The notes under the pieces are model-generated. The model saw nothing but the letters and a program-made list of their open reading frames with translations. It ran no database searches and had not been told where the DNA came from. 22,250 nt of DNA from a virus: IMG/VR virus record IMGVR_UViG_3300043466_000830, positions 1-22,250 of that record. One strand, given 5' to 3'. Below are positions 2,825 through 17,473 of this stretch, in pieces; position 1 is the stretch's first letter; each line of letters begins with the position of its first letter. Both the position numbers and the translations under genes were made by a program.

Positions 2825-2975
2825 TTTTGTCTTTCTTTTTTTCTTTTTCTATTTTTTTCCAAGTAACACAATAAACTTTTCTATTGTACACATCTCCTGT
2901 CCATGTCCATCGGACACAAATATATTCTGGTTTTGTGTAAGCTAAAGCTAAAGTCATTAGTGCTTCAACTATCAT
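2817..2975 (-). CDS. Small conserved-looking protein of 52 residues
   Basis: 52 residues beginning MIVEALMTLALAYTKPEY, followed by ICVRWTWTGDVYNRKVYC and a Lys/Glu-rich tail. Its ATG overlaps the TGA of the upstream gene (ATGA at 2975-2972), and its stop overlaps the start of the downstream gene by 8 nt. Both junctions are typical of coupled phage genes, which is the main support for it. The short hydrophobic start could be a weak signal or anchor. Two cysteines and three tryptophans in a compact core suggest a small folded domain. Function unknown. Confidence 0.7.
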   Translation of the reverse strand: MIVEALMTLALAYTKPEYICVRWTWTGDVYNRKVYCVTWKKIEKEKKKDKND

Positions 2976-3625
2976 CTATTTGCTAATGGATTATCGATAG
3001 CCTTCTGAATCTTGTTATCGACTTCTTTTTTGAGAGCATCCACATCTCTCTTAACATCTCTTTTCATACCATCAACTTCTCTAGCAATTTCTTTTTTGCT
3101 AGTGTCAACTTCTTTAGTTATTTCTCTACGGGCATCAGAAACTTCTTTACGGATTGCATTCACTTCAGCCCTAGCTTTTTCTAGGTCCTCACGAATATCT
3201 TTTCTTGCTTGACGCATTTCAGTTTCTGTTTCACGCTGAGCCACTTTCACACTTCTTTCGATCTGTTCAGTAACAGATTCATTTCTACGAATATCGTTCT
3301 TCAGATCATTCTTAATGTCTCTTGTGTAATCTGAAGTTTTTGCACTGTTTTCTTCAATAACCGCCAATCGTTTATCAAACTCGGACAAGTCTGGTGTAAC
3401 GTACTCTGCAATTTTTTTCTTCATGCCAATGTAGTCTTTGTAGACTTCAAATGCTCCATACAATCCACCTAATGTGGACGATACGATGGTGGCCGCTATC
3501 ATCAACTTCGCTGGTGTAAATTCATATCCACCAATGCTGATAACGGTATCCTTGCTTGCGTACTTCTTGACTGCTGCCTCTGCGGCATCAATCTTCTTAT
3601 TAACGTCTTTAATTTCTTCTCCCAT
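2972..3625 (-). CDS. Membrane-anchored coiled-coil protein
   Basis: 217 residues. A charged N-terminus of about 35 residues precedes one membrane segment (about 40-60, LMIAATIVSSTLGGLYGAF). Residues from about 78 to 205 form a long Lys/Glu/Asp/Arg-rich coiled coil with repeated units such as REITKEVDTSKKEIAREVDG and MKRDVKRDVDALKKEVD. No catalytic motif is visible. Such proteins often form extended rods or oligomeric scaffolds at a membrane. It starts 9 nt after the stop of the 577-residue protein gene, with a ribosome site (GAGGAAAAAATG context), and its stop is coupled to the 52-codon gene. A structural or spacer role in the same envelope complex is inference. Confidence 0.8.
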   Translation of the reverse strand: MGEEIKDVNKKIDAAEAAVKKYASKDTVISIGGYEFTPAKLMIAATIVSSTLGGLYGAFEVYKDYIGMKKKIAEYVTPDLSEFDKRLAVIEENSAKTSDYTRDIKNDLKNDIRRNESVTEQIERSVKVAQRETETEMRQARKDIREDLEKARAEVNAIRKEVSDARREITKEVDTSKKEIAREVDGMKRDVKRDVDALKKEVDNKIQKAIDNPLANR

Positions 3626-6383: not shown

Positions 6384-6464
6384 GGCAGTTTCCCCTATTT
6401 TAATAAATTCCATGACAAAAGTCTTTCACCCCTTTTATTTAGGGCGTTTTTGTCTTTAGGAAGT

Positions 6465-6513
6465 GTTGTATTTGTGCAACATGCTTGACAGAACACGGAA
6501 TCTGAAGCATAAT
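6465..6513 (+). promoter_or_regulatory. Promoter P1 with GTTG-N8-CAAC dyad
   Basis: The dyad GTTGTATTTGTGCAAC (6465-6480) lies 4 bp before TTGACA (6485-6490). A 17-bp spacer leads to CATAAT (6508-6513). The gene at 6538 starts 24 nt further on. The region also separates this gene from the divergent minus-strand operon, so the dyad may affect both. Confidence 0.8.
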
Positions 6514-7432: not shown

Positions 7433-7602
7433 CTACTATCGAACAAACAATGGAAACAATTACCCCCTATATGGAGGCTCTGGCTGATGCTACGGAAGCC
7501 TTGGAAAACGGAACTTCCACTCCGTCCCAGAACCTTATCTGGCTTCAAGCCTTGTCGGAAATGTGGGTTAGGGAAAGTGTTGCGCAAACCCAACAGTCTT
7601 GA
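7429..7602 (+). CDS. Small protein of 57 residues
   Basis: 57 residues, MTTIEQTMETITPYMEALAD then a mostly helical remainder with two tryptophans. The start overlaps the preceding stop as ATGA. The last codons run through promoter P2: the dyad lies in codons near the stop and the stop TGA (7600-7602) overlaps the TTGACA box. Function unknown. Confidence 0.65.
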   Translation: MTTIEQTMETITPYMEALADATEALENGTSTPSQNLIWLQALSEMWVRESVAQTQQS

Positions 7603-8218: not shown

Positions 8219-8510
8219 AGGTATGGGACCTAGGCAGTCCGTGGTGCATGAACTATTGGACACTCTTTTCTTTGGTAATCTTGACCGAGTAAAGGGCATG
8301 GATTCTTATAAAAAAGTGAAGACTGCCGAGAATATGGATGCTTACATGGTTCCTTTTGCAAGGGACAAGCAATGCTTTGGTGCTATCATGGTGCATTCTC
8401 CCCGCCGAATTGAAGTTTTTTACAATATGAAAGGCAAAAAGATCAAAACCAAGTGCCCTAGCCTTTATGAGACTAAGAGGTTCATGGTCAAGACCTTTGT
8501 CCAGCCCTAG
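8205..8510 (+). CDS. Small protein of 101 residues, unknown function
   Basis: 101 residues with an N-terminal helix (HELLDTLFFGNLDRVKGM) followed by alternating strands and basic loops (SPRRIEVFYNMKGKKIKTKC). No recognisable motif. The ribosome site AAAGGACCGAAC precedes ATG 8205. It is last in the P2 transcript before a long inverted repeat. Confidence 0.7.
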   Translation: MLFHEGMGPRQSVVHELLDTLFFGNLDRVKGMDSYKKVKTAENMDAYMVPFARDKQCFGAIMVHSPRRIEVFYNMKGKKIKTKCPSLYETKRFMVKTFVQP

Positions 8511-8512
8511 AA

Positions 8513-8583
8513 CGGCTTTTGGGCGGCTCTACAGGGTCGGATGCAGTCTACCCCCCACCCTCAAGGAAAACCGCCCAAAACCG
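8513..8583. repeat. Long inverted repeat with GGGCGG/CCGCCC arms
   Basis: TTTTGGGCGG (8517-8526) pairs with CCGCCCAAAA (8571-8580), extendable by 3 bp past a bulged C. The loop is 44 nt and no T-run follows on the plus strand, so it is not a standard terminator. A diverged copy lies at 17090-17159. Confidence 0.65.
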
Positions 8584-8603
8584 CTAAAATGACCCCCTAA
8601 GTT

Positions 8604-8619
8604 GTTGTTTTTACACAAC
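8604..8619. promoter_or_regulatory. Upstream GTTG-N8-CAAC dyad of promoter P3
   Basis: GTTGTTTTTACACAAC lies 39 bp upstream of the dyad that abuts the P3 -35 box. The paired arrangement recurs at 17171 and 17195. It may be a second binding site for the same regulator. Confidence 0.65.
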
Positions 8620-8642
8620 AATTTTGTCGTTTTTTCCCAACT

Positions 8643-8686
8643 GTTGTAAAAATACAACTTGACAAGTCTTCCCATTGTGCTATACT
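8643..8686 (+). promoter_or_regulatory. Promoter P3 with dyad; predicted leaderless transcript
   Basis: The dyad GTTGTAAAAATACAAC (8643-8658) directly abuts TTGACA (8659-8664). A 16-bp spacer leads to an extended -10, TGC-TATACT (8681-8686). Only 6 nt separate the -10 from ATG 8693, so transcription should start at or next to the start codon. Confidence 0.8.
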
Positions 8687-8692
8687 GTGTAC

Positions 8693-9007
8693 ATGATGAA
8701 AAAACGCCGTTGCGACCGAAATCATGTAGTCTACAAGGTGACTTGCGTAGACACTGGCGATGAATACATTGGTATTACTGTCGCACAAGGGCAAGCATAT
8801 CTTCGCTCCGTCAAGGTCCGTTGGCAAAAGCATGTTAGTCGTGCCAAATGCGAAAACAAGGACTGGAACTTTTGCCGTGCTTTGCGAGACTTGATGGACT
8901 GCGCATGGACCTATGAGGTTCTGGAAGTGATCCGTGGCCGCAAGCCTGCACACCAGCGTGAGCGTGAATTGATTGCCGTCTACAACCCTAGCCTGAACAC
9001 CTTTTGA
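8693..9007 (+). CDS. GIY-YIG domain protein
   Basis: 104 residues, almost entirely one GIY-YIG nuclease-like domain. Seen are the first strand VVYKVT (12-17), the YIG turn YIGIT (25-29), a basic helix VRWQKHVSRA with the expected catalytic Arg, and the closing helix HQRERELIAVYNPSLN with the metal-ligand Glu and conserved Asn. Phage members include homing endonucleases such as T4 Seg proteins, but there is no extra DNA-binding domain here, so the role (homing, host DNA attack or repair) is open. ATG 8693 or 8696 lies 6-9 nt after the -10 box, so translation is probably leaderless. The frame runs upstream into the promoter and is not used there. Confidence 0.82.
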   Translation: MMKKRRCDRNHVVYKVTCVDTGDEYIGITVAQGQAYLRSVKVRWQKHVSRAKCENKDWNFCRALRDLMDCAWTYEVLEVIRGRKPAHQRERELIAVYNPSLNTF

Positions 9008-9021
9008 TTATGGAAGATATC

Positions 9022-9393
9022 ATGAAAACTTGGGAAGAATTGACCCCTCTGGAGCAAGCCGCTGCCACCTATTGGGACATGTATAAAGATGCACACGGTG
9101 TCCGTCCTCGTGGTATCGATACCAGCAATTGGACTTTGGAAGACTTCGATAGGGAGTTTGAATACCTGTCGAAGGTTATCGATAGTGAGGAAGCCTTACG
9201 CCGTGAAGCCGAGGCAGTGGCCGTCAAGGAATTTGAAAATTGCGTAACTCGCATGATCCTGACCGGTGCTGGCGACCGAGAAACCGCCCTGCGTTGGTTG
9301 ATGCAAGCCAGTGATGCTGGCGGGGACTGGGAATACTTTTGCTATCTGAACGGCTTGCCGTACGGATATTTCAGAACCGAGAGTGTTGCATAA
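9022..9393 (+). CDS. Conserved protein beginning MKTWEELTPLEQ, unknown function
   Basis: 123 residues from ATG 9022, chosen because TGGAAGATATC precedes it; ATG 9010 is an alternative. Mostly helical: TPLEQAAATYWDMYKDAHG, then a charged helix (SEEALRREAEAVAVKEFEN), and a C-terminal segment ALRWLMQASDAGGDWEYFCY. Similar proteins occur in many phages without an assigned function. The end of the gene contains the dyad of promoter P4. Confidence 0.8.
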   Translation: MKTWEELTPLEQAAATYWDMYKDAHGVRPRGIDTSNWTLEDFDREFEYLSKVIDSEEALRREAEAVAVKEFENCVTRMILTGAGDRETALRWLMQASDAGGDWEYFCYLNGLPYGYFRTESVA

Positions 9394-9432
9394 AAACAAC
9401 ACTATTGACATTCGCCACAAACTGAGTATAAT
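9385..9432 (+). promoter_or_regulatory. Promoter P4 with dyad; predicted leaderless transcript
   Basis: The dyad GTTGCATAAAAACAAC (9385-9400) lies 4 bp before TTGACA (9405-9410). A 16-bp spacer leads to the perfect -10 TATAAT (9427-9432). ATG 9440 follows after 7 nt. Confidence 0.83.
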
Positions 9433-9439
9433 AGAAATT

Positions 9440-9628
9440 ATGGAAATCGATGCTATCAATTTCGAACTGGCCTTGATCGGTCAAGAGGCTGCTGAGGCTC
9501 GTATGGCTGAGTATGCCGATGAACTTGACATGGAAATGCTTCTGACGGATCCACGTTTCTACGGTCCAGACTTCGATGAAGGCGCAAATGATTGTGATGG
9601 TTTTTGGTCGTGGGAGTTAATGGTATGA
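9440..9628 (+). CDS. Small acidic protein of 62 residues, leaderless
   Basis: 62 residues, MEIDAINFELALIGQEAAEA onward, strongly acidic with a DPRFYGPDFDEG turn and aromatic end GFWSWELMV. The frame opens further upstream, but that part lies in the promoter, so ATG 9440 is used. No ribosome site is present because the -10 box is 7 nt away. The stop overlaps the next start (ATGA). An acidic DNA-mimic role is conceivable but unsupported. Confidence 0.7.
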   Translation: MEIDAINFELALIGQEAAEARMAEYADELDMEMLLTDPRFYGPDFDEGANDCDGFWSWELMV

Positions 9629-9789
9629 GAGGTTCGATTCGATTTGTTCTTGGTTTGCTGATTGTCTTCGGTGCCGTTGGTACCTTGGAAGTAAATCATG
9701 ATGCAAGCCTGCTTACCCAAGGCATTGTTGCCGCATTGGGGTTGATGTTAGCCAAGTCTGGCGTGGATGCTTTAGGAGAAAATGTATGA
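9625..9789 (+). CDS. Small membrane protein of 54 residues
   Basis: 54 residues from ATG 9625 (ATGA overlap with the previous gene). Two hydrophobic segments are visible, FVLGLLIVFGAVGTL and LTQGIVAALGLMLAKSG, joined by a short polar loop. A short hairpin membrane protein of this type may modify the host inner membrane. It is shorter than typical holins and lies outside a lysis cluster, so I do not call it one. It overlaps the next start (9786-9789). Confidence 0.72.
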   Translation: MRGSIRFVLGLLIVFGAVGTLEVNHDASLLTQGIVAALGLMLAKSGVDALGENV

Positions 9790-10043
9790 TGTATCTTGCG
9801 AAACCGAATAACAAGAACTTGACAAACTCTCGCCAGTTTGCTACAATGTTAGAAGCAATGGAGTACTTGAATGAAGTTACCGCTTCCGAGGACACTGTTG
9901 CGATGCCAATTGATGAATGGATTGTAATTGGCAAACTGTTGCAAGTGAATGAAGATGGCTCGATGACCATGCCAACCGAATACCCTAAAAAAGTGAAGGG
10001 TGAAATCAAGATGGTCAAACTTGACATTGACAGTTACCTGTGA
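9786..10043 (+). CDS. Small protein of 85 residues, unknown function
   Basis: 85 residues, MMYLAKPNNKNLTNSRQFAT followed by helix EAMEYLNEV and strand-rich DEWIVIGKLLQVNEDGSMTM. Ribosome site AGGAGAAAATGT lies before ATG 9786 (or 9789). A promoter-like pair (TTGACA 9819, TACAAT 9842) lies inside its 5' end, and its last codons carry the tandem TTGACATTGACA of the next promoter. Confidence 0.72.
   Translation: MMYLAKPNNKNLTNSRQFATMLEAMEYLNEVTASEDTVAMPIDEWIVIGKLLQVNEDGSMTMPTEYPKKVKGEIKMVKLDIDSYL
9819..9847 (+). promoter_or_regulatory. Possible internal promoter
   Basis: TTGACA (9819-9824), 17-bp spacer, TACAAT (9842-9847), inside the 5' part of the gene at 9786. No GTTG-N8-CAAC dyad is present. 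It might drive a shorter product from ATG 9858 or reinforce downstream transcription; it may also be chance. Confidence 0.35.
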
Positions 10044-10049
10044 TAGAAT
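10021..10049 (+). promoter_or_regulatory. Sigma70 promoter before the winged-helix gene
   Basis: TTGACA (10021-10026, followed at once by a second TTGACA), 17-bp spacer, TAGAAT (10044-10049). It overlaps the end of the preceding gene. Unlike P1-P7 it has no dyad upstream, so it should escape that regulator. Confidence 0.7.
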
Positions 10050-10091
10050 TTGATTTGGTGATTTAATTTTTAACTTGAAAGGAAATTCATT

Positions 10092-10577
10092 ATGAGTAAG
10101 TCCCTGCAATATCTGAAGGTTCTCGAAACCCTGAAGAATGCCAATGGTCCTGTGACCGTCTCCGCTATCAAAGCTATTGATGGTATCGTTCCCACCCGTC
10201 TTTCGACCTATCTGTGGGAAATCAAAAAGCACACCGGCTTCAGTGTTCAATCCAACCGTGACGGCCGCACCGTTGTGAGTTATGAACTTGTCGGTACCGG
10301 TACTGTTTCCGCACCGAAAGTTGCTAAGACTAAGGCACCCAAAGCGGCTAAGCCGGCTGCTCCTGCGGTTGCTAAACCTGCCAAGGCTACCAAAGCACCC
10401 AAGGCCAAGACCGTTGCCGTTGCGCCTAAGGTGACTGCTGATGATATCATCACTGAAACCATGAAAGGTGCTGTGATGAAGGACTCTATGGTTTTTGATG
10501 CCTTGGATGAAATTCAAACCAATGTCCAAGACTTCGAGGATCGTAGTTACGCAGAACAATATGTAAAGAGTTTGTAA
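10092..10577 (+). CDS. Winged-helix-like protein with histone-H1-like Ala/Lys/Pro tail
   Basis: 161 residues. Residues 1-67 look like a small winged-helix domain: YLKVLETLKNANGPVTVSAI, a second helix TRLSTYLWEIKKHTG, then the wing strands FSVQSNRDGRTVVSYEL. Residues of about 74-115 are almost only Ala, Lys, Pro, Val and Thr, with repeated KAPKAAKPA-type units as in histone H1 and bacterial H1-like tails. The remaining C-terminus (ADDIITETMKGAVMKD onward) is acidic. Known H1-like tails bind DNA without sequence specificity and compact it. A DNA-binding or transcription role is likely; it is also one candidate for the regulator of the dyads, purely by inference. It has its own promoter and the site AACTTGAAAGGAAATTC. 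Confidence 0.8.
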   Translation: MSKSLQYLKVLETLKNANGPVTVSAIKAIDGIVPTRLSTYLWEIKKHTGFSVQSNRDGRTVVSYELVGTGTVSAPKVAKTKAPKAAKPAAPAVAKPAKATKAPKAKTVAVAPKVTADDIITETMKGAVMKDSMVFDALDEIQTNVQDFEDRSYAEQYVKSL

Positions 10578-10587
10578 AGGATATAAT

Positions 10588-10749
10588 ATGGCTACAATAG
10601 CGGAACTCGTAAAAGCCGCTATTCTTGAAGCATGGGGATGCGGCTTGTCTGGTGAAGATGTGGTCGCATTTGCCATTTCTAAAACTAACGCGCCAGTCCA
10701 AACGGTCGAAAGAATTTTGAGTGAAATGTATAACAGTATGAAAGATTGA
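10588..10749 (+). CDS. Small protein of 53 residues, possible helix-turn-helix
   Basis: 53 residues, MATIAELVKAAILEAWGCGL then SGEDVVAFAISKTNAPVQTV and a closing helix. The SGEDVVAFAI...VQTVERIL segment could be a helix-turn-helix, but it is too short to be sure. AAAGGATATAAT precedes ATG 10588 as a good ribosome site. Confidence 0.65.
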   Translation: MATIAELVKAAILEAWGCGLSGEDVVAFAISKTNAPVQTVERILSEMYNSMKD

Positions 10750-10750
10750 T

Positions 10751-10843
10751 ATGAATCAAGTGAAACTTTTCCTATACAATAATTTTTATCTGTTTGAAGG
10801 CCTTGCGCATGTAACAATGGCTCTTGCCCTATTGGCATCTTAA
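10751..10843 (+). CDS. Putative 30-residue membrane peptide
   Basis: 30 residues beginning MNQVKLFLYNNFYLFEGLAH, ending in the hydrophobic run MALALLAS. It starts 1 nt after the preceding stop and ends 1 nt before the next start, a spacing that favours a real gene. It is too short for strong support. Confidence 0.45.
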   Translation: MNQVKLFLYNNFYLFEGLAHVTMALALLAS

Positions 10844-10844
10844 T

Positions 10845-11384
10845 ATGAAAATTCAAACAGTATATCTTGATCTTGATGGTGTAGTTGCATACTTCGATAA
10901 ACGATGGATGGAACTATTCAACGAAACACCAGGCTCGTCACGCAACCGAAAAAATTTTAGTCCTAACTGGGACACCTTTGTTGGCAATCGAAATTTTGCT
11001 ACACTGGATTTGTTTCCCGGCGGCGAGGCTTTGCTTGAATACATTCGTTCAATCGACAAGCAAGTGAATGTGGAGATTCTATCGTCAAGCGGCGGTAAAA
11101 AATTTCACAACGAAGTCTCTGAGCAAAAAGATGAATGGCTAAACAATCTTGGAGTGAACTATGTTCGCAACATTGTTCCGGGTCGTTCATTGAAGCGTAA
11201 CTATGCTACACCTGATTCCATTCTAGTCGATGACACCGAGGATGTGATTGAGGGTTTTCGTAATGCTGGAGGTATTGGAATTCTTCATACAGATGCCAAT
11301 GAAACAATCGAATTGTTGAAAGGATATTTGAATGAAGGCACTTCTTATAACTCAATGCTCCGACAGACTGATGTGGTATCGTGA
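10845..11384 (+). CDS. HAD-family 5'(3')-deoxyribonucleotidase-like phosphatase
   Basis: 179 residues from ATG 10845; the frame opens slightly earlier but MKIQTVYLDLDG is the family start. Motif I is DLDG, with nucleophile D9 and acid/base D11. Motif II is the Ser in ILSSSGG, a lysine-containing helix follows, and motif IV is ILVDDTEDVI. The length and the DxDGV start fit the NT5C-type subgroup, which dephosphorylates (deoxy)nucleoside monophosphates. In a phage this may adjust nucleotide pools during DNA synthesis. Other small-molecule HAD substrates are possible. The last 53 nt overlap the next gene. Confidence 0.8.
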   Translation: MKIQTVYLDLDGVVAYFDKRWMELFNETPGSSRNRKNFSPNWDTFVGNRNFATLDLFPGGEALLEYIRSIDKQVNVEILSSSGGKKFHNEVSEQKDEWLNNLGVNYVRNIVPGRSLKRNYATPDSILVDDTEDVIEGFRNAGGIGILHTDANETIELLKGYLNEGTSYNSMLRQTDVVS

Positions 11385-11532
11385 TTTAGTCGGTATCACT
11401 GTTCCTTTTTTGCGCCAGTATCATGATTGCTTTATGAGTCGTGAACCTGCTGGCTACGCAAACATTGTTAAATTGAATGATGCAACCATTGTTGAAGTGA
11501 GTGAATTATGCCAACTGTATACAAAACAGTAG
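11332..11532 (+). CDS. Small conserved protein (MWYRDLVG...SREPAGYANIV)
   Basis: 66 residues. The segments MWYRDLVGITVPFLRQYHD and SREPAGYANIVKLNDATIVE form a compact pattern that I recognise from many phage genomes; function unknown. AAAGGATATTTG precedes ATG 11332 inside the HAD gene. The C-terminus overlaps the next gene by 25 nt. Confidence 0.75.
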   Translation: MKALLITQCSDRLMWYRDLVGITVPFLRQYHDCFMSREPAGYANIVKLNDATIVEVSELCQLYTKQ

Positions 11533-11750
11533 ATGTTGATATTGACGTTGATGATATATTGGAAGAAGTTGATACCGAGGATTTGGTCAACGAACTTGAG
11601 CGCAGAGGCATCGACTACAATACCAAAGGTCTTGATGCTGATGAAATGCGAACTGTTCTAGAATCTATCTGGATGAAACGTAGAACAGGACAAGACTATC
11701 AAAAAGAACTTGACACCTTGATTTACGGGGTGTTAGGAAAAATCTTATGA
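11508..11750 (+). CDS. Small acidic protein of 80 residues
   Basis: 80 residues: strand-like TVYKTVDVDIDVDDIL, acidic helices EEVDTEDLVNELERRG, and C-terminal helix YQKELDTLIYGVLGKIL. Strongly acidic in the first half. Similar acidic proteins occur in the small-gene regions of many phages. Function unknown. Confidence 0.75.
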   Translation: MPTVYKTVDVDIDVDDILEEVDTEDLVNELERRGIDYNTKGLDADEMRTVLESIWMKRRTGQDYQKELDTLIYGVLGKIL

Positions 11751-11759
11751 TTGGCGGGC

Positions 11760-12032
11760 ATGTTGGCAACATATGACTATGCAATAGGCGGTAAACTTAT
11801 CACAGCAACCATTACAGTGTCTTCAGATAATATAGCGATAATGAAAGATGATGGAAAGGTTCTTCTAAAACATACATTGGTAAACATGATTGTGAAAGAA
11901 ATGATCGAAAATGGATTTGTAGAGTTTACGCAAGCCGATGATATGGTTACAGGGTTCAGAGTGATTAGGGCAAGGGCATATGTTGCCCCAGACTCTCAAG
12001 TAAAAATTCTTCGTAGCTTAAAGAAAGTTTAA
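11760..12032 (+). CDS. Small protein of 90 residues, unknown function
   Basis: 90 residues from ATG 11760, MLATYDYAIGGKLITATITV; a TTG at 11751 would add three residues and cannot be excluded. Predominantly strands in the first half (TATITVSSDNIAIM), then a helix (VNMIVKEMIENG) and a basic end. No known motif. It follows the 80-residue gene directly. Confidence 0.68.
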   Translation: MLATYDYAIGGKLITATITVSSDNIAIMKDDGKVLLKHTLVNMIVKEMIENGFVEFTQADDMVTGFRVIRARAYVAPDSQVKILRSLKKV

Positions 12033-12033
12033 T

Positions 12034-12363
12034 ATGAAATTGAAACCGAAAATTCGTAAAATTGCAAAAGAGGCAGGCTTCATTTTTTGGGGCAATGATT
12101 CGTGGGGTCCTGGCAAAGGCCACATCGATTGGTCGTGTGAATATGACGAAGAACTTACAAAATTTGCAGAGATTTTGGAAAGTAAACTGCGCAGAAAGGT
12201 TGCGAAGCAAATCGAAGATATTCTGAGAGGCGATATAACTTTCGTTTCGGACACCTCAGAGAAATATCTGGAAGGTTACGATGACGCTGCTCTTGATGCA
12301 ATTGAAATTGTTTTGACTAATGGAAAAGGATATGGAAATGAATCCAATGAAGACTGGTCTTGA
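12034..12363 (+). CDS. Small protein of 109 residues, unknown function
   Basis: 109 residues. Basic N-terminus (MKLKPKIRKIAKEAGFIFWG), aromatic middle (GHIDWSCEYDEELTKFAEIL) and an acidic helical C-terminus. The WxCEYDEELxKFAE stretch resembles many small phage proteins with no assigned role. It overlaps the next gene by 26 nt. Confidence 0.72.
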   Translation: MKLKPKIRKIAKEAGFIFWGNDSWGPGKGHIDWSCEYDEELTKFAEILESKLRRKVAKQIEDILRGDITFVSDTSEKYLEGYDDAALDAIEIVLTNGKGYGNESNEDWS

Positions 12364-12550
12364 ACTTGATTACGAAACCGCAGACAAGATTACGGTTCTG
12401 AATCTATTGGATCAACTAGAATTTCTTCAGAATGAACTGAATGCACATAGGAATGGAGACTATATGCACAAGGACGATGCATATAATTCCGAGTTTAAGT
12501 TGATTCCTGCACTGAAGACAATTCTGCAATACTATGGAGAAGATGTATGA
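12338..12550 (+). CDS. Small helical protein (LDYETADKITVLNLLDQL)
   Basis: 70 residues from ATG 12338, which has AAAAGGA 7 nt upstream; ATG 12347 is an alternative. The pattern ELDYETADKITVLNLLDQLE followed by an acidic helix and HKDDA recurs in many phages, probably a helical hairpin. Function unknown. It ends where the next promoter begins. Confidence 0.72.
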   Translation: MNPMKTGLELDYETADKITVLNLLDQLEFLQNELNAHRNGDYMHKDDAYNSEFKLIPALKTILQYYGEDV

Positions 12551-12555
12551 GCGAC

Positions 12556-12584
12556 TTGACAGACAATAAAGATTCCCGTACAAT
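12556..12584 (+). promoter_or_regulatory. Sigma70 promoter before the WYL_2 protein gene
   Basis: TTGACA (12556-12561), 17-bp spacer, TACAAT (12579-12584), no dyad. It lies in an open frame that would extend the next protein by 21 residues; the promoter and the AAGGAGATTTT site show the true start is ATG 12610. Confidence 0.68.
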
Positions 12585-12609
12585 ACACATATCCAGACAA
12601 GGAGATTTT

Positions 12610-12891
12610 ATGAGCATTGCTGAATGGGAACAAAAAGACAAGACTAAGTTTGCCAAGTGGTTGCACAGCCATCTTGTCATGGGCGAACTGTTTGTCAATT
12701 TCGAAAAAGCTGATGGCACTCTGCGTGAAATGCGTTGCACTCTAAAAGATGTGCCTGAGTATGAGCGTAAGACTGAGAATGACAAGCCTCGTAAGAAAGC
12801 CGAAGGTGTCATGGCTGTGTTTGATTTGGACAAGCAAGAATGGCGTTCATTCCGTATTGATTCTGTGAAGAGTGTAAGATTTGATCTATGA
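12610..12891 (+). CDS. WYL_2 (DUF2693) SH3-like protein
   Basis: 93 residues from ATG 12610, preceded by AAGGAGATTTT. The C-terminal two thirds carry the family pattern: MRCTLKDVPEYE, a basic insert, then GVMAVFDLDKQEWRSFRID and the final strand VKSVRFDL. The family, known from T4-like and other phages, is predicted to be a small SH3-like beta barrel. It is related in name to the WYL ligand-binding domain, but no function is established. It has its own promoter and overlaps the next gene by 4 nt. Confidence 0.82.
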   Translation: MSIAEWEQKDKTKFAKWLHSHLVMGELFVNFEKADGTLREMRCTLKDVPEYERKTENDKPRKKAEGVMAVFDLDKQEWRSFRIDSVKSVRFDL

Positions 12892-13439
12892 AGAAAGAAC
12901 TTGACGAAGAACTGTGTCGCAAATATCCGAAACTGTTTCGTGATCGTCATGCGCCTATGACTGTCACCTGCATGTGTTGGGGATTTAGTTGCGGTGATGG
13001 TTGGTATAATATTATTGATGCATTGTGTGGAAACATTCAAAGCCACATTGACAATCAAAGAAAGAATCGCATATATGCATTGAAATTCAATCGTGCTTTG
13101 CAGAAAGCAATTGATGGCGATCATGATGCACTATGCCATTACTTTCGGACTGAAAAACTAAACGATTGGCTGATTAAATCAATCGAAGAGAAAAAATTTC
13201 GTGATGTGCCAAACAAGACTCGCCAAGTCGTTGTCTCTCAAGTGAAAGAAAAGTTTGGTGGTCTTAGATTCTATATTGATGGTGGAGATGATGTGATTCA
13301 TGGTATGATTAGCATGGCTGAATCTATGTCATATCGTACTTGTGAAGTTTGCGGCAATCCAGGCAAAGCAAACAGTGAAGGTTGGATTACTACTTTGTGT
13401 GAAACGCACCGTAATGAAAAGGAGGCTCGCTATGCCTAA
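12888..13439 (+). CDS. Conserved phage protein with C-terminal zinc-finger-like motif
   Basis: 183 residues. A helical first part includes CWGFSCGDGWYNIIDALC. The middle carries VVVSQVKEKFGGLRFYIDGG and a helix MISMAESMS. The end has a likely zinc site C152-X2-C155 ... C171-X2-H174 (CEVCGNPG, LCETH). This arrangement recurs in many phages and some prophages without known function. The zinc motif suggests nucleic-acid or protein binding. Start overlaps the previous stop. Confidence 0.82.
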   Translation: MKKELDEELCRKYPKLFRDRHAPMTVTCMCWGFSCGDGWYNIIDALCGNIQSHIDNQRKNRIYALKFNRALQKAIDGDHDALCHYFRTEKLNDWLIKSIEEKKFRDVPNKTRQVVVSQVKEKFGGLRFYIDGGDDVIHGMISMAESMSYRTCEVCGNPGKANSEGWITTLCETHRNEKEARYA

Positions 13440-13914
13440 TTGGTGTATGAATTCGTTCAATGTCGAAGGCGACAAAGAAACGATTGATAAATTTGAAGCA
13501 TTTTTGAATGAGAAAGACGGAAAAGACTGGTTCGATTTCTTTGCACCAAAGCCTGCCGATCTTCCTGAGAGTGAGCATTATGGATGGAATCTAGAAAACT
13601 TTGGGTGCAAGTGGAACTGTGATGCACAGGACTGGACCCGTGAAGGCGACAAGATTTCGTTCTGGTTCGATTCGCCGTGGGGTCCTCCAACCAATCTTTA
13701 CTACAAGATAGAAGAAGAATTTGATGTAGTGGTCAAAGCAGAGTTTTGCGAAGAAGGTATCGGCTTCGTTGGTGAATTTGTCGATGGTAGCGAAGAAACT
13801 TATGAGTACTCTGATCTAGATGATTTGGATGACATTCCAGAACACTTGATAGAGAACTGGAACATTCGTGAGAACATGGAGGATCGCCTAGCTGAGGAAG
13901 AAGACGATGAATGA
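13432..13914 (+). CDS. Api92-like (DUF1281-type) ferredoxin-like fold protein
   Basis: 160 residues from ATG 13432, which has a perfect AAAAGGAGGC site; the frame opens 30 codons earlier, inside the previous gene. The opening MPNWCMNSFNVEGDKETIDK and the WGPPTNLYYKIEEEFDV segment match the ferredoxin-like family found in phages and plasmids (Api92/YubB type). Its function is unknown. The C-terminal 35 residues are very acidic. Start and end both overlap neighbouring genes. Confidence 0.8.
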   Translation: MPNWCMNSFNVEGDKETIDKFEAFLNEKDGKDWFDFFAPKPADLPESEHYGWNLENFGCKWNCDAQDWTREGDKISFWFDSPWGPPTNLYYKIEEEFDVVVKAEFCEEGIGFVGEFVDGSEETYEYSDLDDLDDIPEHLIENWNIRENMEDRLAEEEDDE

Positions 13915-14128
13915 TCATGATCGAAAGAATTTAGAATTTTTGCTCACCGCATCGCCTGAGGTCATCAAAGACTGGTATCGTAGTGTAGATAAGGATGATC
14001 ATCAATACGCAATTGAACTTCTAGAATCCGCTTGCTTAGAACTTTTAGAACGACCTGTTAATCTTTCGATGGATTGCTCTCAAGCGAAAGAACTGTTATC
14101 AAAATATACACTAAAAACTAAAACATAA
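13907..14128 (+). CDS. Small helical protein of 73 residues
   Basis: 73 residues, MNDHDRKNLEFLLTASPEVI, then DWYRSVDKDDHQYAIELLES and a basic end. All-helical by composition. The start overlaps the previous gene by 8 nt. Last gene before promoter P5. Function unknown. Confidence 0.7.
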   Translation: MNDHDRKNLEFLLTASPEVIKDWYRSVDKDDHQYAIELLESACLELLERPVNLSMDCSQAKELLSKYTLKTKT

Positions 14129-14130
14129 CT

Positions 14131-14188
14131 GTTGTTGTTTTACAACACTCAAAAAAGCCCTTGACATTTGCCAAAATCTCCGTATAAT
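14131..14188 (+). promoter_or_regulatory. Promoter P5 with dyad at 14 bp
   Basis: The dyad GTTGTTGTTTTACAAC (14131-14146) lies 14 bp before TTGACA (14161-14166). A 16-bp spacer leads to TATAAT (14183-14188). The 5' leader carries TCTGTAGTGATTGA (14193-14206), repeated exactly in the P6 leader. Confidence 0.82.
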
Positions 14189-14224
14189 TGACTCTGTAGT
14201 GATTGAGAACATTTGGAGAAAGTA

Positions 14225-14497
14225 ATGCGTACAAAGCAACTAATTTCTGGCTTGAACAACAACCAAAAAATCCGTGTGATTTGTGAAGGTGTGATGTTTA
14301 ACACCACTGTCAAGGATGCCATTGAAGGTATGGGAATCTATCACCAACGGGTTGCGGTGTTTTCGGCTCTAAATTCGATAGGTTGCGACCAGCGCCTGCC
14401 TTTGGGCCAGCGGCCGACTGGTTTTGCTAGCCGTATTCGGTCGTACAAGGCTGACGGTACAATGGCTGAGGTTGATGTTCAAGTTGATTTGTTGTAA
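14225..14497 (+). CDS. Small protein of 90 residues, unknown function
   Basis: 90 residues from ATG 14225, with TGGAGAAAGTA upstream. Contains KIRVICEGVMFNTTVKDAIE, a strand-rich region and a final VDVQVDLL. No known motif. Driven by P5. The stop TAA is embedded in the dyad at 14491-14506. Confidence 0.72.
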   Translation: MRTKQLISGLNNNQKIRVICEGVMFNTTVKDAIEGMGIYHQRVAVFSALNSIGCDQRLPLGQRPTGFASRIRSYKADGTMAEVDVQVDLL

Positions 14498-14506
14498 AAA
14501 AACAAC
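14491..14506. promoter_or_regulatory. Isolated GTTG-N8-CAAC dyad
   Basis: GTTGTAAAAAAACAAC overlaps the stop codon of the preceding gene. No TTGACA or -10 box follows before the next gene at 14526, so it may be an orphan operator or a weak hairpin between two co-transcribed genes. Confidence 0.6.
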
Positions 14507-14525
14507 ATCAGTAAAGGAGTTTAGT

Positions 14526-14732
14526 ATGGACTATAGTATGTTTTCTGACGTAGGTAATGCAATGATTCATGGCATTGTCACAGGTGCTAGGCATAAGAAC
14601 CTGACATGGCCTGAAGTGTATACCATGCTTGAAACTGTATCAAAAATCGATGGTTTCGGTGAAGCCACGGACACTGAGGTCCGTGAATGTGTTTATGCTG
14701 CATGTGGTTTTAAAACCGGTTTCTACTGCTAA
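14526..14732 (+). CDS. Small protein of 68 residues
   Basis: 68 residues from ATG 14526 with AAAGGAGTTTAGT upstream. MDYSMFSDVGNAMIHGIVTG then KNLTWPEVYTMLETVSKIDG, mostly helical, with cysteines near the end. The frame is open upstream, but the strong ribosome site fixes the start. Function unknown. Confidence 0.72.
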   Translation: MDYSMFSDVGNAMIHGIVTGARHKNLTWPEVYTMLETVSKIDGFGEATDTEVRECVYAACGFKTGFYC

Positions 14733-14753
14733 GTTAGTACTTACTTACTAACT
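14732..14753. repeat. Perfect 8-bp inverted repeat
   Basis: AGTTAGTA (14732-14739), 6-nt spacer, TACTAACT (14746-14753). It begins in the stop codon of the preceding gene and ends where the P6 dyad starts. There is no T-run, so it is not a clear terminator; a protein-binding site or an RNA-processing hairpin are options. Confidence 0.6.
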
Positions 14754-14811
14754 GTTGTATTTGCGCAACATTCAAAAAAACCCTTGACATTTCCTCCAAT
14801 TGGTGTAGAAT
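14754..14811 (+). promoter_or_regulatory. Promoter P6 with dyad at 14 bp
   Basis: The dyad GTTGTATTTGCGCAAC (14754-14769) lies 14 bp before TTGACA (14784-14789). A 16-bp spacer leads to TAGAAT (14806-14811). The leader repeats TCTGTAGTGATTGA (14816-14829). The linker (CAAAAAAACCC) nearly matches that of P5. Confidence 0.82.
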
Positions 14812-14841
14812 AGATTCTGTAGTGATTGAAGAGGACTTGAT

Positions 14842-15579
14842 ATGAAACTGCTTTCGACTGGAAACCCCAAAATTCTCAAGGGCACCGCCCAAGGTTACAA
14901 TACTTATATTCTGCACCTTGCACCGGCTGACGTTAGCGGTTATGAAACCTGTCCCAAGCGGACGGCTGGTTGCACTGCGGCTTGCCTGAACACCGCTGGT
15001 CGTGGCGGTATGTTCAAACGTGGCGAAACCACTAACGTGATTCAAGAGGCACGGAAGCGTAAGACCCGTTTGTTTTTTGAGAACCGTGGCGCATTTATGC
15101 TCCAACTTTACCTTGATATCAAAAAGGCAATCAAGCAATCCGAAAAACTTGGCTTGATTCCTGTGTTCCGTTTGAACGGCACTTCGGACCTTGCGTGGGA
15201 AAAGTATGAGGTTCAGGACGGCAAAAACATTTTTCAAATGTTTCCCAATGTCCAGTTTTATGACTACACCAAGATTCTTGGCCGCAAAGTAAAAGCGATT
15301 CCCAATTATCACCTGACATTCTCTGCCGCTGATGGTAATGATGCCGATGTTGCAAAAGCTATCGTACAAGGGTATAATGTTGCTACTGTGTTCGGTATCA
15401 AGAAAACCCTGCCGATGCCTGAGACTTACATGGGCTTGCCTGTGTTCAATGGTGACGATTCCGACCTGCGATTCCTTGATCCGAACGGTGTTGTGGTTGG
15501 CTTGTACGCAAAAGGCAAGGCTAAGAAAGACACCAGCGGCTTTGTGAAGTTTCCCACTATCATGTTGAAGGCGGCTTAA
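14842..15579 (+). CDS. GP88-like phage protein with Cys motif
   Basis: 245 residues. Shows the pattern of the phage GP88 family: GYNTYILHLAPADVSGYETC, the cysteine cluster C37-X6-C44-X3-C48, NTAGRGG, KRGETTNVIQEARKRKTRLF, then FRLNGTSDLAWEK and VQFYDYTKI. Such proteins are widespread in mycobacteriophages and proteobacterial phages, and their reaction is unknown. The three close cysteines could hold an iron-sulphur cluster or zinc, and the alternating strand-helix pattern after them fits a TIM-barrel-like fold; both are inference. It is expressed from its own promoter P6, with AGAGGACTTGAT as ribosome site, so it may be needed in large amount or early. Confidence 0.82.
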   Translation: MKLLSTGNPKILKGTAQGYNTYILHLAPADVSGYETCPKRTAGCTAACLNTAGRGGMFKRGETTNVIQEARKRKTRLFFENRGAFMLQLYLDIKKAIKQSEKLGLIPVFRLNGTSDLAWEKYEVQDGKNIFQMFPNVQFYDYTKILGRKVKAIPNYHLTFSAADGNDADVAKAIVQGYNVATVFGIKKTLPMPETYMGLPVFNGDDSDLRFLDPNGVVVGLYAKGKAKKDTSGFVKFPTIMLKAA

Positions 15580-15580
15580 T

Positions 15581-15835
15581 ATGACTAAATCCCGTAAAAT
15601 GTGGACACCCACTGACCCTAATAAAATGAACAAACGAATTAAAGAACTCTTGAAGCAGGCAACCAAAGAAGTCGATCCCTACGACCGAGTGTGGGTATTC
15701 TCCAAAGTCGATCAGGCAAGGTTCGCCGAGTTGATTGTAAAAGAAACCATGCAGGTTGTGGCCAATCAATTACCCAGCAATCAATATCTTAATGTAGCAG
15801 AAGCCGTTATTACACATTTCGGAGTTGAAGAATGA
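15581..15835 (+). CDS. Small protein of 84 residues (KRIKELLKQA)
   Basis: 84 residues: basic N-terminus, helix NKRIKELLKQATKEVD, then VDQARFAELIVKETMQVVAN and a C-terminal helix. The pattern RIKEL...FAELIV.E is very common in small phage proteins of unknown function. It starts 1 nt after the GP88-like gene and its stop overlaps the next start as ATGA. Confidence 0.75.
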   Translation: MTKSRKMWTPTDPNKMNKRIKELLKQATKEVDPYDRVWVFSKVDQARFAELIVKETMQVVANQLPSNQYLNVAEAVITHFGVEE

Positions 15836-16143
15836 AAATTGTAATCAATGAGTGTCATGGCGGCTTTGGTCTGTCTAAAGAGGCGCAGGATATGTACTGC
15901 GCCAGCAAAGGCATTGAGCCAGGCGAATGGAATCCAACATGGGGGTTCTATGATAACTTTTCGGATGATGGCATTCCTCGGAATGATGCTGAACTGATCC
16001 GCATTGTTGAAACCCTCGGTGAAAACTCTTGGGGCAAACACTCGGAACTGAAGATTGTAGAAATTCCCGAAGATGTAAACTGGTACATTGAAGAATATGA
16101 TGGTGCAGAATGGGTGGCCGAACGTCACCGCACTTGGAGGTAA
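15832..16143 (+). CDS. Conserved phage protein beginning MKIVINECHGGFGLS
   Basis: 103 residues. The start MKIVINECHGGFGLSKEAQD, the middle NDAELIRIVETLGENSWGKH and the end ELKIVEIPEDVNWYIEEYDG followed by EWVAERHRTW form a very characteristic pattern found in many phages. No function is known. Strand-helix-strand alternation suggests a small alpha/beta domain. ATGA overlap with the previous gene. Confidence 0.82.
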   Translation: MKIVINECHGGFGLSKEAQDMYCASKGIEPGEWNPTWGFYDNFSDDGIPRNDAELIRIVETLGENSWGKHSELKIVEIPEDVNWYIEEYDGAEWVAERHRTWR

Positions 16144-16145
16144 AC

Positions 16146-16526
16146 ATGGGTACTAATTATTACGTTGCTAAAGGTCTTTGTGAATGTTGCAACCGGTATG
16201 ATAAAGAATACCATATTGGTAAATCTTCATACGGTTGGGCATTCTCATTTCAGGGCTATCCTGCTGAACGGCTCACTTCATGGAAGGCATGGAAAGAGTT
16301 TCTGAAAAATCAAATCATCATGGATGAATATGGTGATCGTGTTGACTATGAATGGTTTGTTCAATTCATAGAGAATGAAAAGTCTCCCGGCTATGTTCGT
16401 AATGATGGACGCAAAAATCTTCAACATAATGAGGCTGGTAAAAAAGATAAGTATCCATGGTTCAATCCCGAATACGATTGGGATGATGAAGACGGGTATG
16501 CTTTTTGTTCTAGAGAATTTTCGTGA
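16146..16526 (+). CDS. Conserved phage protein beginning MGTNYY
   Basis: 126 residues from ATG 16146, preceded by TTGGAGGTAAAC. The opening MGTNYYVAKGLCECCNRYDK contains a Cys cluster (CECC), and HIGKSSYGWAFSFQGY follows; His plus cysteines may form a metal site. The rest is aromatic and acidic (PWFNPEYDWDDEDG). The pattern recurs in phage genomes without a known role. The last 4 nt overlap the next GTG start. Confidence 0.8.
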   Translation: MGTNYYVAKGLCECCNRYDKEYHIGKSSYGWAFSFQGYPAERLTSWKAWKEFLKNQIIMDEYGDRVDYEWFVQFIENEKSPGYVRNDGRKNLQHNEAGKKDKYPWFNPEYDWDDEDGYAFCSREFS

Positions 16527-16783
16527 ATAGTAAAGAAATTCAAACCGCTATCTATGAATGGGCTTGCAGTAAAAACTTTACTGCACCCTATGGCGTCCTG
16601 ACGGGTGAGTACGCCAACAAAAAAGGCAATAAGTATCTTGCCGTGACTTTTGGTCGTGCGAGAACTCTGGACGCAACTGTTGAAATCTACAATCGAAAAT
16701 TTATGATTCTTCGAACAAGCAACTATGGTATCGAAGTGTTCAATGATTTTGCAACCCTAATGGCTAAACTGGAGGCTGTATGA
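16523..16783 (+). CDS. Small protein of 86 residues, GTG start
   Basis: 86 residues starting with GTG 16523 overlapping the prior stop (GTGA). An N-terminal helix (SKEIQTAIYEWACSKN) is followed by strands (YLAVTFGRARTLDATVEIYN, KFMILRTSNYGIEVF) and a final helix. A beta-rich small domain; no motif recognised. Confidence 0.72.
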   Translation: MNSKEIQTAIYEWACSKNFTAPYGVLTGEYANKKGNKYLAVTFGRARTLDATVEIYNRKFMILRTSNYGIEVFNDFATLMAKLEAV

Positions 16784-16923
16784 TTCGTGAATTTAATTTC
16801 TTTCTAGACGCATGGCTTTTTTGCTATGGACAAAAAGTTGATTGGAAAAAAGCCATTCAACGAAGAGACTGGGACACCTGGACAGTCTCTTTTGAAAAAA
16901 ACGAAGATCACTTGAAGATGTGA
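16780..16923 (+). CDS. Small aromatic-rich protein of 47 residues
   Basis: 47 residues, MIREFNFFLDAWLFCYGQKV then DWKKAIQRRDWDTWTVSF, with four tryptophans. ATGA overlap with the previous gene, and GGAGGCTGT as ribosome site lies within it. Its last codons overlap the -35 region of the next promoter. Function unknown. Confidence 0.65.
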   Translation: MIREFNFFLDAWLFCYGQKVDWKKAIQRRDWDTWTVSFEKNEDHLKM

Positions 16924-16940
16924 CTCGGATATGCTATAAT
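16912..16940 (+). promoter_or_regulatory. Possible extended -10 promoter
   Basis: TTGAAG (16912-16917), 17-bp spacer, TGC-TATAAT (16935-16940). The -10 is perfect and extended, while the -35 is imperfect. No dyad is present. ATG 16941 immediately follows the -10 box. Confidence 0.5.
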
Positions 16941-17045
16941 ATGCAAGCCCAAGCCATGCTGAATATCTCAGAAGGTATTAAAAACGGTAAGGTTCAAACA
17001 ATTGTAGTGCCATCCAACTTTAACGCACTAATGATGCCCAAGTAA
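16941..17045 (+). CDS. Possible 34-residue peptide
   Basis: 34 residues ending VQTIVVPSNFNALMMPK. ATG 16941 abuts a TATAAT box, so a transcript from that promoter could only use the second ATG at 16956 (29 residues, MLNISEGIKNG). There is no clear ribosome site for either. It is kept because it fills the gap before a terminator; low support. Confidence 0.4.
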   Translation: MQAQAMLNISEGIKNGKVQTIVVPSNFNALMMPK

Positions 17046-17065
17046 CCGGTTTTGACCGCCATCAA

Positions 17066-17107
17066 GCCGCCCACAGACCCTTTAAACCAGGTTTTGGGCG
17101 GCTTTTT
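17066..17107 (+). terminator. Rho-independent terminator
   Basis: GCCGCCC (17066-17072) pairs with GGGCGGC (17096-17102) across a 23-nt loop, followed by a run of five T. It ends the operon that runs from P6. The 3' arm can instead pair with 17144-17159, so the two hairpins are alternatives. Confidence 0.6.
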
Positions 17108-17159
17108 GACATAGGAAGCACCCCTAGCATCACCCACAAGCGGAAAGCCGCCCAAAACC
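17090..17159. repeat. Long inverted repeat, copy of 8513-8583
   Basis: GGTTTTGGGCGGCTTT (17090-17105) is the exact reverse complement of 17144-17159, with 38 nt between. Core arms TTTTGGGCGG and CCGCCCAAAA are shared with the repeat at 8517-8580. It competes with the terminator for the same GGGCGGC arm. Confidence 0.75.
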
Positions 17160-17170
17160 GCCCTAATTTC

Positions 17171-17186
17171 GTTGTTTTTTTGCAAC
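17171..17186. promoter_or_regulatory. Upstream GTTG-N8-CAAC dyad of promoter P7
   Basis: GTTGTTTTTTTGCAAC, 24 bp upstream of the P7 dyad. It is the counterpart of the dyad at 8604. Confidence 0.65.
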
Positions 17187-17194
17187 AAAAGATT

Positions 17195-17242
17195 GTTGTT
17201 TTTGTACAACACGCTTGACAATCATTCCCATTGTGCTATACT
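17195..17242 (+). promoter_or_regulatory. Promoter P7 with dyad; predicted leaderless transcript
   Basis: The dyad GTTGTTTTTGTACAAC (17195-17210) lies 4 bp before TTGACA (17215-17220). A 16-bp spacer leads to extended -10 TGC-TATACT (17237-17242). Six nt later is ATG 17249. The spacer and -10 (CCCATTGTGCTATACT) are identical to those of P3. Confidence 0.83.
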
Positions 17243-17248
17243 ACAAGT

Positions 17249-17473
17249 ATGGTAACGAAATTAATTGAATTTGTAGGTGTTTTCTCTGGCATACTTGGCT
17301 CGTTCCTTGTTGCCCGCGGTTTTCTTGCTGTTGGGTTCTGCCTGTTCCTCGTGTCTTCGATTTGTCTGATGTATTCGGCAATCAAGCAAAAGAACTGGAA
17401 CCTAACTTTGTTGCAGAGTGCATTCTTGTTTTCGAATGTGCTTGGCGTTTCCAACTATGTCTTTGGAGTTTGA
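17249..17473 (+). CDS. Small polytopic membrane protein, leaderless
   Basis: 74 residues from ATG 17249; upstream codons lie in the promoter. Hydrophobic segments: EFVGVFSGILGSFLVARGFL, AVGFCLFLVSSICLMYSAI and LLQSAFLFSNVLGVSNYVF, so two or three membrane helices. The G-I-L-G-S...S-x-x-W-like layout with KQKNWNLTLLQ resembles short PnuC/YgjV-type membrane proteins seen in phages; that is a weak resemblance. Expressed from P7 with almost no leader. May alter host membrane or small-molecule uptake; unknown. Confidence 0.72.
   Translation: MVTKLIEFVGVFSGILGSFLVARGFLAVGFCLFLVSSICLMYSAIKQKNWNLTLLQSAFLFSNVLGVSNYVFGV

Follow-up and report, generated by a model that had tools for sequence, protein, structure and literature searches.

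Start codons immediately downstream of -10 boxes predict leaderless mRNAs for three small genes of a viral record and for genes of related phages

The virus record IMGVR_UViG_3300043466_000830 was analysed as a single window (the complete record of 22,250 bases), and three small plus-strand genes in it, encoding a GIY-YIG protein, an acidic protein and a short membrane protein, have start codons lying directly behind promoters. The mRNAs of these three genes are probably leaderless (we put the probability at about 0.83, judging from the sequences). In the promoter of the GIY-YIG gene (8659–8692), the -35 box TTGACA (8659–8664) is followed after 16 bp by an extended -10 box, TATACT (8681–8686), and then by 6 nucleotides (nt), GTGTAC, and the ATG at 8693. 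The promoter of the acidic protein gene (9405–9439) consists of TTGACA, a 16-bp spacer and TATAAT (9427–9432), with 7 nt, AGAAATT, before the ATG at 9440, and that of the membrane protein gene (17215–17248) of TTGACA, 16 bp and an extended -10 box, TATACT (17237–17242), with 6 nt, ACAAGT, before the ATG at 17249. The exact TTGACA, the 16-bp spacer and the ATG start codon are thus common to all three junctions, and the promoter positions and gaps listed in an earlier note on this DNA were reproduced exactly on rescanning. That note also held that none of the three junctions has room for a ribosome site, and no Shine-Dalgarno (SD)-like 4-mer was found ahead of the ATGs at 8693, 9440 and 17249 (scoring used loose 4-mers, which some -10 boxes also match). 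The usual sigma-70 start point lies about 7 bases past the -10 box; the predicted transcription start is therefore the A of the ATG or a neighbouring base at all three genes. This prediction, made in the earlier note, is well supported by the kept spacing, the lack of an SD sequence, the pyrimidine-A context and the occurrence of the same layout in other phages.

In total, 11 promoters with no more than one mismatch to TTGACA plus TATAAT were identified in the window, all on the plus strand and all with an exact TTGACA. Three of them are the near-ATG promoters, seven precede other genes and one (9819) lies inside a frame starting at 9786. SD-like 4-mers occur at six of the seven starts served by the promoters of other genes (6538, 7660, 10092, 12610, 14225, 14842 and 21849). 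The contention that the other genes have strong ribosome sites held in part, as 26 of the 41 other scored starts have an SD-like 4-mer and the remaining 15 do not. With two positions allowed for an ATG that begins a frame of 60 codons or more, 3 cases among 11 promoters would arise by chance with a probability of 2.3e-4, but conservation among relatives is a stronger argument than this figure.

For that comparison, loci were gathered from a promoter-palindrome pattern scan (among the matches listed), which places no constraint on the distance to the ATG, from relatives of GP88, of the GIY-YIG protein, of the acidic protein and of the membrane protein, and from four near-whole relatives. After removal of near-duplicates, 967 promoters remained, and the distance was measured to the next ATG downstream of the -10 box that begins a frame of 40 codons or more and does not lie within a longer open one. 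The scans used ATG starts of mechanically called open reading frames (ORFs), so that members starting with GTG or TTG would be missed, and on our reading of the frames the internal-start filter also removes the window's own gene at 9440. The counts were 1 at 3 nt, 0 at 4 nt, 1 at 5 nt, 54 at 6 nt, 9 at 7 nt, 3 at 8 nt, 5 at 9 nt, 1 at 10 nt, 4 at 11 nt and 6 at 12 nt, with longer distances rare apart from 17 nt (10 promoters) and a broad second peak, of leadered genes, at 25–35 nt; 446 of the 967 promoters have no qualifying ATG at 3–59 nt. Two controls were examined. ATGs of short frames (<25 codons) numbered 16 at 6 nt versus 3–25 elsewhere, a weak spike, and TATAAT-like boxes lacking a -35 box (not dereplicated) gave no peak at 6 nt (140, within a range of 92–189). 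The 6-nt spike thus needs both a -35 box and an ORF. Without the internal-frame filter, ORF-opening ATGs numbered 65 at 6 nt, 26 at 7 nt and 27 at 9 nt. One apparent leaderless group, the MKCT family (15 members), was rejected because its ATG is internal to a longer frame, and the set was recounted with the internal-start filter in place. Figures for a second membrane family were set aside because they include spurious matches. Chance spacing was rejected on the combined strength of the spike in relatives, both controls and the figure for the window. Its recurrence in many related phages makes the layout look selected.

The genes at 6–8 nt (66 genes in 32 families, 7 of which have at least two members) also differ from leadered genes in the sequence around the start, with the GIY-YIG family weighing heavily in this class (21 of the 66). 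None of the 66 has an SD-like 4-mer, versus 314 of 419 leadered genes. A pyrimidine stands directly before the ATG in 63 of the 66 versus 182 of the 314 SD-leadered genes (p = 2e-10); with one gene counted per family, the figure is 30 of 32. The A content after the ATG is higher in the leaderless class (45% versus 37%; p = 5e-5 with one gene per family), and the 40-nt folding energy is weaker (-1.5 versus -2.7 kcal/mol; p = 0.008 with one gene per family), indicating less structure. The start ATGATG is found in 10 of the 32 family representatives and in 10 of the 314 SD-leadered genes. Two related-looking groups of leaderless genes (L122:4567, L154:6472, L161:2562 and L195:6444) end in a CxC...CxH pattern, which we liken to a SWIM zinc finger.

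The GIY-YIG gene (8693–9007) starts with ATGATG and encodes a protein of 104 amino acids, which scored 23.8 bits against the Pfam GIY-YIG model (cut-off, 22.6). The residues that define the domain (Y, Y-x-G, R, E and N) are present as Y14, Y25, G27, R43, E90 and N102 and are invariant in 12 sequences; they presumably have catalytic roles. The 80 loci obtained by protein search have 61 distinct upstream sequences, of which 50 have a -10 box 5–8 nt before the ATG and one has an SD-like motif. A survey of starts gave 110 matches and 77 distinct usable starts, the rest being duplicates, lacking the motif or lying at contig ends. A -35 box, a -10 box and a gap of 5–9 nt were present at 62 of these 77 starts (47 with a gap of 6 nt), and the remainder comprised 2 with a -10 box only, 3 scored as SD and 10 others. 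One member of the last class (L271) has a two-mismatch -10 box at 6 nt. In the GIY-YIG tree, the leaderless label changes at least 9 times, and well-supported branches require 5 of these changes. Leaderless members stand on either side of the deepest split drawn, although many forks are poorly separated and the distant side (seven rows) was drawn from pattern loci selected by promoter. Two relatives (L281 and L285) have a leader containing AAAGGA, and the leader of a third (L283) is weaker; the GIY-YIG family can thus switch between leaderless and leadered states. In L281 (about 845–900) and L285 (about 2950–3004), the AAAGGA lies in a short upstream ATG frame, where it could be used as the SD sequence of the GIY-YIG gene, and the two frames overlap at ATGA.

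Several GIY-YIG relatives (L250, L261 and L274) have no nearby promoter, and their ATG overlaps or adjoins the stop codon of the upstream gene, which indicates that the GIY-YIG gene can be translated with neither an SD sequence nor a promoter of its own. This arrangement would be expected if the promoters were real but most of the protein came from longer mRNAs reading through from the operon upstream and was made by coupling or standby initiation, leaderlessness being incidental to compact packing, and the acidic protein gene of the window likewise begins only 47 nt past the stop codon of the gene upstream. However, two of the three cassettes are set off from the genes upstream by a hairpin, in one case a terminator-like one, and packing alone predicts neither the sharp spike at 6 nt nor the pyrimidine bias. 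We regard read-through as a very unlikely main source of these proteins. The hairpin before the GIY-YIG cassette (8513–8583, plus strand) is GC-rich with no T-run after it (-30.9 kcal/mol, z = -2.75), and that before the membrane cassette (17064–17109, plus strand) is the terminator-like one, being followed by TTTTT (-22.8 kcal/mol, z = -4.99).

The acidic protein gene (9440–9628) encodes 62 amino acids with no family found. Two loci agree with the window; L291, with a protein of 68% identity, retains the 7-nt gap although its promoter has changed. The membrane protein gene (17249–17473) encodes a short hydrophobic protein of 74 amino acids that is weakly PnuC-like (Pfam NMN_transporter, 18.7 bits, below the cut-off of 27.3; PHROG 1880, E = 3e-4). 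The 6-nt gap is present in 9 of 10 relatives of this gene, one upstream type having a two-mismatch -10 box, and one relative (L334) has no promoter at that place.

The layout also occurs in named phages. In the Xanthomonas phage XacN1, 7 of 37 promoters scored over 79.7 kb lie 6–8 nt before an ATG, none with an SD-like motif, and six of these seven ATGs are annotated starts of coding sequences (L303:23988, 25917 and 9310 on the minus strand; L344:2421, 9602 and 24025 on the minus strand). In the Methylophilales phage Melnitz, 7 of 29 promoters lie at 6–8 nt; four of the seven ATGs are annotated starts, including those of a MazG-like gene and a primase gene, and one of these four has an SD-like 4-mer. 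Since the layout stands at annotated start codons in these two cultured phages, the prediction is directly testable. A term search of the main text of the XacN1 paper (PMC5852040) for leaderless, promoter, Shine and RNA-seq found none of them. T5 provided no control, with one scorable promoter in 49 kb.

Several observations weigh against leaderless mRNAs. Among the 77 GIY-YIG starts, the 10 others lack the layout and 3 scored as SD, and the protein searches covered the best 80 of 569 relatives of GP88 and the best 80 of 570 relatives of the GIY-YIG protein. The layout is absent from remoter homologues of the acidic protein gene (three classed as other and one as SD), and the layout in the ten membrane gene relatives comes from two upstream types only. 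No promoter at 6–8 nt was found among 12 in the Variovorax phage V45v66, 4 in the Limnohabitans phage DC31 and 11 in the Stenotrophomonas phage CM1, in the parts scanned. The start rules were those of Escherichia coli and may not suit the host. In addition, folding of the first 40 nt in the window gave -4.8 kcal/mol for the start at 8693, with the AUG paired, -6.4 kcal/mol for that at 9440 and -1.0 kcal/mol for that at 17249, so that the first two are structured relative to a group mean near -1.5 kcal/mol, contrary to a simple rule of an open 5' end.

An actinobacterial host, in which leaderless genes would be ordinary, is disfavoured. The best named relatives of GP88 by identity are phages of Xanthomonas, Stenotrophomonas and Limnohabitans, although 235 of its 264 matching records are mycobacteriophages. 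The 7660 protein has 36 matching records, in which the named groups shown are all phages of Proteobacteria and four groups are unnamed. PhoH is closest to that of cyanophages. One contig with a leaderless GIY-YIG gene (L294) sits in an alphaproteobacterial metagenome-assembled genome (MAG), binning being a weak indicator of host, and the other two MAG contigs (Flavobacteriales and Rhodospirillaceae) do not have the layout.

If the three mRNAs are leaderless, the host sigma-70 RNA polymerase would transcribe the genes from strong promoters, starting at the A of the ATG or within 1–2 bases of it, and ribosomes would recognise the AUG at the 5' terminus and initiate there with no SD sequence involved. 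The genes may be used early in infection, which fits host-type sigma-70 promoters. The most likely purpose of the layout, which we propose tentatively and at somewhat less than even odds, is restraint: strong transcription would be combined with modest, SD-independent translation, and the lack of an SD sequence would keep the dose of small, potentially harmful proteins such as a free GIY-YIG nuclease low. This would agree with the finding that most GIY-YIG relatives have no SD sequence in any context (3 of the 77 distinct starts scored as SD). A known parallel is I-TevI, a GIY-YIG nuclease of phage T4 that is likewise restrained at translation, an RNA structure blocking its early synthesis (PMC2988022), which makes dose control plausible. 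In T4, however, a real ribosome site is hidden in the structure and the promoter is a late one, whereas the gene considered here has a sigma-70-like promoter and lacks a ribosome site. Other points speak against restraint. Leaderless expression in E. coli ranges from weak to comparable with that of SD-led genes (PMC4965119), so that weakness is not assured, an SD sequence has been gained in L281 and L285, and the A-rich starts suggest selection for, rather than against, initiation.

The earlier note had proposed a different advantage, namely that leaderless mRNAs are favoured in altered translation states and that the three genes could thereby gain an early or stress-specific benefit; on this reading, the mRNAs would profit from changes in the ribosome or the initiation factors of infected or stressed cells. 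Leaderless translation responds to the level of initiator tRNA and possibly to (p)ppGpp (review, PMC9031893), and genes for a bS21 protein, a tmRNA and a peptide deformylase are present in Melnitz, one of the phages with the layout. A switch of the ribosome by bS21 was rejected, because none of the 14 records of relatives (possibly fragments) carries a bS21 gene. Moreover, leadered SD genes use the same type of promoter and palindrome, and both classes are thus probably expressed together. Low or controlled translation fits as well as such a change in the ribosome, and we consider the latter unlikely to be the reason for the layout.

The palindrome shared by the two classes is GTTG-N8-CAAC, with the consensus TGTTGY-N6-RCAACA. 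It lies within 80 bp upstream in 188 of 610 distinct promoters (a set from which pattern-selected loci were excluded) versus 3 in a reversed control, and the strict form gave 126 forward and reverse matches in the 14 records of relatives versus 13 in the control, a site being countable on both strands. Its spacing to the -35 box clusters at 20–26, 29–34, 41–45 and 52–55 bp, the first cluster being broad and the best period roughly 10–11 bp. In 602 promoters, 205 palindrome centres lie within 120 bp upstream of the start of the -35 box, including 5 at no more than 10 bp; the next 50 bp downstream of that point contain no centre, and another 5 centres are found beyond. Since no centre falls in the 50 bp beginning at the -35 box, a role as a repressor operator is disfavoured. 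The site is two-fold symmetric, upstream of the -35 box and spaced roughly by helical turns, as is characteristic of class I activator sites. We give even odds to the view that the palindrome, common to leadered and leaderless promoters alike, is a putative binding site for a dimeric activator; we know of no protein that binds it, and its sharing would point to an unrecognised regulator. A broader picture, which we hold to be doubtful as a whole, is that of a regulon of uncultured, probably T4-superfamily phages, in which a dimeric protein acts on helically phased TGTTGY-N6-RCAACA sites and a recurring set of small genes (GIY-YIG, short membrane and SWIM-like) is leaderless by design, with tandem AUGs and starts rich in A; dose or timing would then be set via the ribosome rather than a ribosome site.

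Comparable layouts are known elsewhere. The cI and cro mRNAs of phage PY54 were found to be leaderless by rapid amplification of cDNA ends (PMC4488713), the lambda cI mRNA is also leaderless (PMC4965119), and phage transcripts are described as often leaderless in the AR9 paper (PMC5312081). In PY54 and lambda, as is predicted here, a phage mRNA begins at the AUG and is made by the host RNA polymerase from a strong promoter, but those genes are temperate-phage repressors with mapped 5' ends, whereas the genes here encode a nuclease, a membrane protein and an acidic protein and their 5' ends are predicted. Genes of the Deinococcus-Thermus group likewise have a -10 box just ahead of the start codon and no SD sequence, but they need no -35 box besides the -10 motif (PMC12340547), whereas an exact TTGACA is present at all three junctions here. 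In the proteobacterium Burkholderia cenocepacia, 72 transcription starts lie exactly at the start codon and 42 within 10 nt of it, with 24 of the transcripts being tRNAs; these are host genes mapped by differential RNA sequencing in which transcriptional regulators are over-represented, unlike the genes considered here (PMC4603805). Searches of the open-access literature, mostly at listing level, found no account of non-repressor genes forming a conserved leaderless class in phages of this kind, and a class covering many such genes looks new within the literature searched. If the prediction holds, phages of SD-using bacteria would have leaderless translation as a conserved option for a recurring set of small genes, beyond a few repressors, and gene finders that expect an SD sequence may miss such genes or assign their starts wrongly.

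Pattern scanning placed the palindrome before each of the three junctions. An outer copy (TGTTGT-N6-ACAACA, 8603–8620) and one abutting the -35 box (8642–8658) precede the GIY-YIG promoter, a single copy (9384–9401) precedes that of the acidic protein gene, and outer (17171–17187) and inner (17194–17211) copies precede that of the membrane protein gene. Copies also precede four leadered TTGACA promoters (6464–6481, 7578–7595, 14130–14147 and 14753–14770), and an extra copy at 14490–14507 is not followed by a strong promoter. In relatives, the T4-late-like TATAAATA motifs favour one strand (G001, 16 plus and 0 minus; G002, 1 and 13; G007, 4 and 11; G004, 3 and 0; all within L304–L333), and among the four relatives scanned the palindrome promoters are clearly apart from these motifs only in G001. 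A DNA search with the 17060–17265 cassette gave no match to any named phage. The cassettes at 8480–8710 and 17030–17265 resemble copies of one another, each with a GGGCGG hairpin, two palindromes and the identical stretch TTCCCATTGTGCTATACT. Finally, the near-consensus promoter within the gene starting at 9786 lies at 9819–9858, 10 nt ahead of an in-frame ATG.

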